From contig CACWZA010000002.1 in NCBI GenBank assembly GCA_902765215.1, positions 1 to 64,000 of the forward strand: a DNA stretch of 64,000 bases, given 5' to 3'. A program made the translations under genes and the position numbers. Below are positions 4,164 to 33,585 of the stretch, piece after piece. Under the pieces are notes generated by a model that was not told the DNA's origin, did not search any database, and saw only the letters and a program-made list of their open reading frames with translations. Origin of the DNA: an uncultured bacterium (lineage in GTDB: Bacteria; Cyanobacteriota; Vampirovibrionia; Gastranaerophilales; Gastranaerophilaceae). The first letter of the stretch is position 1; each line of letters begins with the position of its first letter.

Positions 4164-4200
4164 TTCCCCCCTTCCGCAGGGGGGATAAAGGGGGGGGTGG
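4164..4200. repeat. C/G-run hairpin in intergenic DNA
   Basis: Six C at 4166-4171 can pair with six G at 4179-4184 across a ttccgca loop, followed by a further run of eight G (4190-4197). This is far more GC-rich than the surroundings. It lies just before another structured repeat and may be a degenerate copy or part of the same element. Confidence 0.6.
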
Positions 4201-33230: not shown

Positions 33231-33263
33231 AAATATAGTATATCCTAAGTATATACTATATTT
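33231..33263. repeat. Perfect 13-bp inverted repeat
   Basis: AAATATAGTATAT (33231-33243), 7-nt spacer cctaagt, ATATACTATATTT (33251-33263). It lies 35 bases after the second exbD. No T run follows, so it is a weak terminator candidate, an mRNA-end stabiliser or a protein-binding site. Confidence 0.75.
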
Positions 33264-33339
33264 CAGACTGTAACAAAAATAGAAAAAAACAATCAAAAAA
33301 AGCAATTCAGTCAGAAAAAAAATCTTTATATAAGTACGG

Positions 33340-33481
33340 GAATTAAAATTTAATAGTTGAATCGAGGATGAAAGAGTCGATTATCGAAAGATAAAGACTA
33401 AACAAAAAATTCTTTTTATACTCTCTCTTAATATCCTCGTGTTTATTTAATGTTTGTCGCTACTCGACAAACTTTTTTTTT
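33340..33481 (+). ncRNA. Candidate structured small RNA
   Basis: There is no ORF here. An outer helix CGAGGAT (33363-33369) pairs with ATCCTCG (33433-33439). Inside, AGTC (33375-33378) pairs with GACT (33396-33399), enclosing TTATC-GAAA-GATAA (33381-33394), a stem closed by a GNRA tetraloop. The element ends in a strong terminator at 33452-33481. A TATAAG (33329-33334) could be its -10 box, though its -35 is poor. The following gene has its own promoter downstream of the terminator, so this is an independent transcript or a long 3' region of the exbD operon. It matches no RNA family I can name by eye; the 5' end is uncertain. Confidence 0.5.
33452..33481 (+). terminator. Strong Rho-independent terminator
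   Basis: GTTTGTCG-ctact-CGACAAAC followed by nine T. Confidence 0.92.
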
Positions 33482-33490
33482 GGGGTGGGG

Positions 33491-33513
33491 GGGGTAAATG
33501 AAAGGGGTAAATA
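33491..33513. promoter_or_regulatory. Tandem GGGGTAAAT motif
   Basis: GGGGTAAATg (33491-33500) and GGGGTAAATa (33504-33513), 13 bp apart, upstream of the kinase promoter. The reverse complement of the same word occurs at 60107-60120, with a close variant (AACCC for ACCCC) at 60152-60165. Possible operator. Confidence 0.4.
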
Positions 33514-33576
33514 TAAAAAAGGTTTGTAAAATGTAGTTATTCTGTTTATTATTTCATTTGCCTGAAAAAGTTTTTG

Positions 33577-33585
33577 TGTTATTAT
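33577..33585 (+). promoter_or_regulatory. Extended -10 of the kinase gene
   Basis: TGtTATTAT, giving a leader of about 20 nt with GTGGAAAG before ATG 33612. It overlaps the longer reading from TTG 33558, which argues against that start. Confidence 0.6.

Follow-up and report, generated by a model that had tools for sequence, protein, structure and literature searches.

A probable family-wide small RNA gene in Gastranaerophilaceae and its candidate trans-encoded antisense partner

An intergenic region behind the exbD genes of an uncultured bacterium of the family Gastranaerophilaceae raises the question of whether it encodes an RNA of its own, which part of that RNA is conserved, and on what it might act. 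The region lies in the window, the 64,000-nucleotide stretch of DNA analysed here, which belongs to a 2.15 Mb draft genome. Gastranaerophilales are relatives of Cyanobacteria that inhabit gut and rumen and do not photosynthesise, and named records with relatives of the exbD of the window include 'Candidatus Gastranaerophilales bacterium' MAGs. No account of small-RNA regulation in Gastranaerophilales was found in the open-access literature.

The RNA A gene in the window

The region contains the following features, all on the plus strand:

33338–33480, +, RNA A gene, recognised by homology; the start is inferred from promoter and conservation, and the end is the T run of the terminator
33302–33307, +, -35-like element GCAATT, from the GCAATT-N16-CTTTATA consensus of 37 RNA A copies
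33324–33334, +, -10-like element CTTTATATAAG, kept in homologues and in the consensus
33363–33369, +, 5' arm of the long helix P1, CGAGGAT; genus-specific, in 8 of 8 genus sequences, six of seven pairs invariant; resembles CGAGGAUAU of RNA B
33375–33399, +, hairpin P2, AGTC..GACT with inner TTATC-GAAA-GATAA; genus-specific, four pairs with two-sided changes, weak
33408–33456, +, conserved 3' module AATTCTTTTTATACTCTCTCTTAATATCCTCGTGTTTATTTAATGTTTG, antisense to RNA B; from a 23-sequence alignment, model R1 and its complement in RNA B leaders
33433–33439, +, 3' arm of P1, ATCCTCG, within the 3' module; located by script and in the genus alignment
33452–33481, +, intrinsic terminator GTTTGTCGCTACTCGACAAAC with T run; from a terminator scan, stem covarying across genera
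33235–33259, +, palindrome TAGTATAT..ATATACTA (TAGTATATCCTAAGTATATACTA), upstream of the RNA A promoter; similar in own-genus relatives, at loci L002, L007, L008 and L013

The initial annotation had described a candidate structured small RNA, in which a CGAGGAT/ATCCTCG helix encloses an AGTC/GACT helix with a GAAA-capped hairpin. Direct reading and a script placed these elements at 33363–33369 and 33433–33439, 33375–33378 and 33396–33399, and 33381–33394 (TTATC-GAAA-GATAA), respectively. The terminator stem (33452–33472) with its T run follows 12 bases past ATCCTCG, as annotated, and is the one such site found by the scan, against 0.2±0.5 expected. The RNA A region folds more stably than expected by chance, at −31.8 kcal/mol with z −3.94, an energy that none of 200 shuffles equalled. 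The minimum-energy fold retains the CGAGGAT/ATCCTCG helix and the terminator, and other pairs replace the AGTC/GACT and GAAA hairpins. The next gene had been assigned a promoter of its own beyond the terminator; a promoter-like site is indeed located there (33558–33585), but such matches are common (7 found, 2.6±2.0 expected), which makes this part of the annotation weak.

A better promoter candidate, for RNA A itself, is GCAATT followed after 16 nucleotides by CTTTATATAAG, which is conserved in homologues. The consensus GCAATT-N16-CTTTATA is clear in 37 distinct RNA A copies, which were chosen by a looser pattern of the same promoter layout, so that 16 of 53 distinct copies were non-matching, cut off or otherwise left out. 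The region upstream of the tRNA gene in the window differs from it and is TTTACA/TATAAT-like. Judging by the promoter-like consensus, RNA A is probably transcribed from this element. RNA A has the sequence features of an intrinsically terminated trans-acting small RNA, since it is intergenic and has its own promoter, recognised by consensus only, and its own terminator. The palindrome at 33235–33259 is located about 100 bases 5' of the RNA A start and is a possible operator of the RNA A promoter. A G-rich repeat GGGGTGGGGGGGGTAAATGAAAGGGGTAAATATA is positioned 3' of the terminator (33482–33515), and similar repeats occur on contigs C12, C23 and C28 (L002, L006 and L005).

The initial annotation could assign the RNA to no known class, and database comparison agrees. 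The covariance models of Rfam release 15 (4227 families) include 6S, Yfr-type and SRP RNAs and riboswitches. Taking a covariance-model match at the gathering score as the criterion, only a tRNA was matched in the window. A search of the region at E≤10 yielded only sub-threshold chance matches, the best of which, to STnc390, reached 21.1 bits against a gathering score of 50 and was on the terminator. No family reached the gathering score at the RNA A or RNA B places of nine further loci. No description of RNA A was found in titles and abstract openings of the open-access literature. The segment 33338–33480 looks like a real small-RNA gene that had not been catalogued before.

Distribution and conservation of RNA A

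BLAST with 33320–33480 as the query detected relatives of RNA A in 183 of the 191 family genomes and in 40 of 41 genera. In most of the other genera, the alignment covers the 3' module and terminator only. Model R1, which describes RNA A, was run on 240 genomes of the class, where it matches 138, and on 146 of the phylum, where it matches 62, and among the matches listed none is outside the family; 82 genomes without a match in the class search and 64 in the phylum search are unlisted. Five family genomes are among the listed non-matches of the class search, a figure that rests on listing order.

RNA A is located about 140 nucleotides behind exbD in the window and is placed similarly in L007, L008 and L013, and copies from other genera in L036, L039 and L040 are directly behind an open reading frame. 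The genome of the window contains a second copy on another contig (97% identity over 278 bases), between a dnaJ-like gene and another open reading frame, and in L010 RNA A is on the strand opposite to exbD. Because other copies of RNA A sit elsewhere, the exbD neighbourhood is incidental. The second copy, the orientation in L010, the promoter-like element and terminator, the missing Rfam match and the family-wide homologues together support the initial proposal of a small RNA well at the sequence level.

Several copies of RNA A are located at contig ends in genomes G030 and G018, so that draft assemblies probably understate how many copies a genome has. In two IMG/VR contigs (L240:795–870 and L241:4475–4700), a run of genes that look phage-like by eye adjoins the 3' end of RNA A, and in L241 host-like genes are positioned on its other side, which raises the possibility that prophages insert at the RNA A gene. 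Two partial matches were rejected as copies of RNA A: L003 has only the promoter and first bases in common with RNA A and so is no full-length paralogue, and L004 proved to be the antisense leader described below. Other genes with a start like CTTTATATNAGTACGGGRATTA, as in RNA A, are present at L003:1501–1560 and in L066 near position 4166, which suggests that the promoter and leader class extends beyond RNAs A and B.

The conserved part of RNA A is a linear, pyrimidine-rich 3' module, UUUUAUACUCUCUCUUAAUAUCCUCGUGUUUAUUUAAUGUUUG, which is almost invariant and fused to a covarying terminator. An alignment of 23 sequences drawn from many genera shows hardly any variation in the module beyond the number of CU repeats. 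The sequence of the terminator stem changes while its pairing stays: 96% of cells are paired, three pairs show two-sided changes, and none of 500 shuffles reached the covariation score. For the annotated fold within the genus, 90 of 500 shuffles reached the covariation score of the whole structure. In the eight sequences of the genus, the long helix has seven pairs, of which six are invariant and the last fails in three; covariation of this helix is uninformative, because its pairs never vary except for the last one. Hairpin P2 has four pairs with two-sided changes in the genus, which is weak covariation support.

The long-range helix and hairpin were found in the genus of the window only, and the 5' half of RNA A differs elsewhere. 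Pairing of the 5' part with the module ranges from z −0.65 to −2.09 in the eight copies from this genus. Over 37 copies from many genera, it is no better than in shuffles overall (mean z −0.57), and therefore the annotated fold is a genus-level feature; as a core conserved beyond the genus it was ruled out, and the term 'structured' in the initial annotation is right only in part. Direct reading of the own-genus RNA A shows a likeness between its 5' arm, AATCGAGGAT-GAAAGAG, and the beginning of RNA B, so that this RNA A seems to hold a partial mimic of its partner. In five loci of one genus (L023, L024, L026, L027 and L029), translation by eye of the RNA A 5' half gives an open reading frame of 27 codons (MGIKEIIDKIFIYISPQLVPQPVRVRN and variants) with many synonymous changes. 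RNA A of that genus is a possible dual-function RNA.

RNA B and its complementarity to RNA A

A weak match to the module in the genome of the window (C10:49982–50020) is its reverse complement and is located at the ribosome-binding region of an open reading frame of 56 amino acids. Homologues of this small gene (MSVLNTYDINAKAN..., 51–56 amino acids), which carries a B-type promoter, are present in 7 of 60 family genomes, and the antisense leader precedes it in the genus of the window and in genus g40. When ten genomes were searched with the module, further reverse-strand matches emerged, which have a promoter-like element directly before them, a terminator-like hairpin after them and no open reading frame between. 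These loci read as genes for short RNAs, which we call RNA B.

The RNA B promoter typically comprises TTTTGTAACAA, TGAAATT and TATATACTTTATATATAT in 65 sequences selected on the last of these elements, and the RNA A and RNA B promoters have their -35 and -10 elements in the same register. The promoter is typically followed by CAUUAAAUAAACAC(GAGGAUAUU)AAGAGAGAG, often a second AGAGAGAG, and then UUCCUAUUCCUACCUUCCUAA and the terminator. Most non-coding RNA B loci lack an open reading frame of 40 amino acids. A promoter-anchored RNA B pattern occurs at 55 places among the matches listed, in 46 of 181 genomes, and the reversed control pattern at six. With a threshold of E≤1e-3, model R2 of RNA B finds matches in 91 of the 240 genomes; at E≤6.1e-7 it finds them in 81, and 79 of these 81 also have RNA A. 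Ten weak R2 places are the reverse strand of RNA A and were dropped, so that four of the 91 genomes (G086, G052, G016 and G174) lose their only RNA B match; the R2 matches in G034 and G308 are doubtful. Conversely, R1 matches the opposite strand of RNA B at G246:C7, G073:C2, G044:C44 and G259:C3. By subtraction, about 50 family genomes have no R2 match, which is only partly explained by the variant RNA B forms of genera g6 and g25, and G025 and G296 have RNA B and no RNA A match. RNA A and RNA B are located on different contigs or at different positions, for example on C2 and C12 (RNA A) and C10 (RNA B) of G000 and on C1 and C2 of G073; they are not encoded on opposite strands of one locus, as a cis-encoded antisense pair would be. 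In L163:1634–1886 (G073), RNA B adjoins the large SRP RNA (RF01854). The minus strand of L015 (7560–7300) contains an intergenic unit that combines AAAAAGCAATTC..CTTTATATAA with a strong terminator-like hairpin and lacks a long open reading frame; it is a candidate for another small RNA.

The 5' end of RNA B, for example CAUUAAAUAAACACGAGGAUAUUAAGAGAGAGUA, is antisense to the RNA A module over up to about 40 nucleotides. The 35 nucleotides after the promoter pattern of 30 RNA B loci were compared with RNA A: 22 pair with it at a level reached by at most 5 of 200 shuffles, and 18 at a level reached by none. Pairing is weaker in L140, L142, L149, L150 and L166, and the pattern matches in L151, L167 and L169 look like chance. 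Fourteen of 20 RNA B loci outside the training set of R2, many of which had been found via the 3' part, also pair at ≤5 of 200 shuffles; G025 and G296, in which RNA A has no match, were paired with the consensus module. The six loci that miss this level are G053 (42 of 200), G140 (41), G025 (42), G101 (152), G121 (11) and G075 (7). The leaders of coding RNA B form predicted duplexes of −36.2 (G000), −35.8 (G034) and −46.8 kcal/mol (G040), each unmatched by 300 shuffles. Among the seven leaders of the small gene, these three, which come from two genera, are at 0 of 300, one is at 1 of 300, and three show no pairing. The pairing covers the ribosome-binding region of the small gene in the genome of the window, and the complementary stretch in G040 is upstream, in the leader. 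By sequence analysis, both genes are present, conserved and complementary to each other well beyond chance. RNA B is separately encoded and, in sequence and computed energy, complementary to the putative effector region of RNA A, as a sponge RNA would be.

Possible roles of the two RNAs

The Hfq family PF17209 was not found in 20 relatives, including the genome of the window, by a search that was positive in 5 of 14 known genomes used as a control. A host that encodes Hfq, which defines Hfq-dependent small RNAs, was thus found in none of the 20, and the apparent lack of Hfq fits the 20–40-nucleotide pairing of RNA A and RNA B. Messenger RNA targets were sought among 153 genes of the same genome, in which the complementarity of the module to gene starts differed by −4.24, compared with −3.25±0.51 for shuffled modules, only a slight excess. 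The gene gpsA had the top energy in this sample and was rejected as a conserved target, as most leaders of its 26 orthologues are ordinary and only three (G000, G034 and G141) were unmatched by 100 shuffles. Regulation of mRNAs by RNA A is thus supported by the B-type small gene in two genera, but not by the 153-gene sample or gpsA. The rpsT-like gene starts were discarded because they matched mostly the end of the query, including an invented part of the terminator. The start of a gene that we take from the look of its protein to be atpB-like, AAAAGAGAGAGTATTACTATG, was noted as a complementary candidate for RNA A. A type I toxin–antitoxin system was rejected, since on inspection the coding form of RNA B specifies a charged, not a hydrophobic, peptide, and most non-coding loci show no open reading frame of 40 amino acids.

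Based on the conservation of the module and its complement, a mechanism can be proposed. RNA A is probably a family-wide regulatory small RNA that is sponged by trans-encoded RNA B, or the two titrate each other, through long pairing that does not depend on Hfq. The segment 33338–33480 would give rise to a trans-acting RNA, the effector of which would be the linear 3' module with CUCUCUCUU and UAUCCUCG, complementary to purine-rich ribosome-binding regions. RNA B, expressed from a related promoter type at a separate locus, would act through its antisense 5' end as the sponge or antagonist of RNA A. In the genome of the window, the ribosome-binding region of the small gene borne by RNA B would likewise lie within the stretch paired with RNA A, which might repress translation of that gene. 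We infer transcription, duplex formation, the direction of sponging and translational repression from the DNA.

The roles may be reversed, which we consider unlikely though worth weighing. RNA B would then be the effector, regulating mRNAs through its C-rich segment UUCCUAUUCCUACCUUCCUAA, and RNA A the antagonist that silences it, for example by duplex formation and cleavage. The C-rich segment is conserved beside the RNA B terminator and persists in the loci with the shortest antisense part, and RNA A was detected in more genomes than RNA B, all of which would fit such an arrangement. However, conservation is far stronger in the RNA A module, as expected for a seed with multiple partners, and the C-rich segment has no extra complementarity to gene starts in the own-genome sample. 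More improbable still is simple antisense repression by RNA A of chiefly one mRNA, that of the small B-type gene, with the non-coding RNA B loci as decayed forms. The promoter of the small gene and the complementarity of its leader in four genomes agree with this possibility, but RNA A is nearly universal while the gene is present in few family genomes, three of its leaders lack complementarity, and gene-less RNA B, the 3' part and terminator of which are conserved, is widespread. An exbD 3' tail or a structured element acting in cis, to which the placement of some copies behind exbD or another open reading frame might point, is very hard to reconcile with the promoter-like element of RNA A and with its reversed, duplicated and otherwise placed copies. 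Nor do we give appreciable weight to a DNA attachment site or repeat, for the multiple copies at contig ends and the abutting prophage-like segments are countered by a terminator stem that stays paired while its sequence changes, a promoter-like layout at fixed spacing, and complementary RNA B leaders located just downstream of promoters.

Returning to sponging or mutual titration of RNA A, we speculate, with less confidence than in the pairing mechanism itself, that an apparently Hfq-less family runs a conserved two-RNA switch. It would combine a near-universal RNA A, often present in several copies and almost frozen in its module, with a mirror-image RNA B that is encoded in trans under a related type of promoter and can gain or lose a coding function while its antisense start is kept; in the genus of the window, RNA A would in addition carry an internal RNA B mimic, CGAGGAU, that folds back on the module. 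If true, the near-universal small RNA and its conserved partner would be a central regulator in Gastranaerophilales and a natural test case for small RNA–sponge circuits with long pairing and without Hfq. The definition of RNA A, RNA B and their two promoter types suffices for a direct search in existing metatranscriptomes.

Rfam families resemble RNA A as short intergenic RNAs with a terminator, and none reaches the gathering score for it; the one match near RNA B is the neighbouring large SRP RNA in L163. In enteric bacteria, the small RNA GcvB is titrated by the sponge RNAs SroC and AgvB, which resembles the relationship proposed for RNA A and RNA B; the pairing in those other bacteria is shorter and Hfq-dependent. 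CrfA of Caulobacter crescentus is reported to be a sponge small RNA that inactivates the sibling small RNAs SisA-D, a small family of related RNAs, and was identified with Hfq (PMC12559287). The likeness to the proposed mode of action lies in a small RNA that acts as a sponge of others and in a pair of two non-coding transcripts, whereas no Hfq was found in the relatives searched for RNA A and RNA B, the complementarity of the two extends up to about 40 nucleotides, and RNA B sometimes carries a small gene. In Campylobacter jejuni, CJnc190 is reported to target a G-rich ribosome-binding site and to be antagonised by the cis-encoded antisense RNA CJnc180 (PMC8687705). That system would share with RNA A and RNA B a small RNA directed at a purine-rich ribosome-binding site and an antisense RNA antagonist; unlike CJnc180 and its target, RNA A and RNA B are encoded at separate loci.
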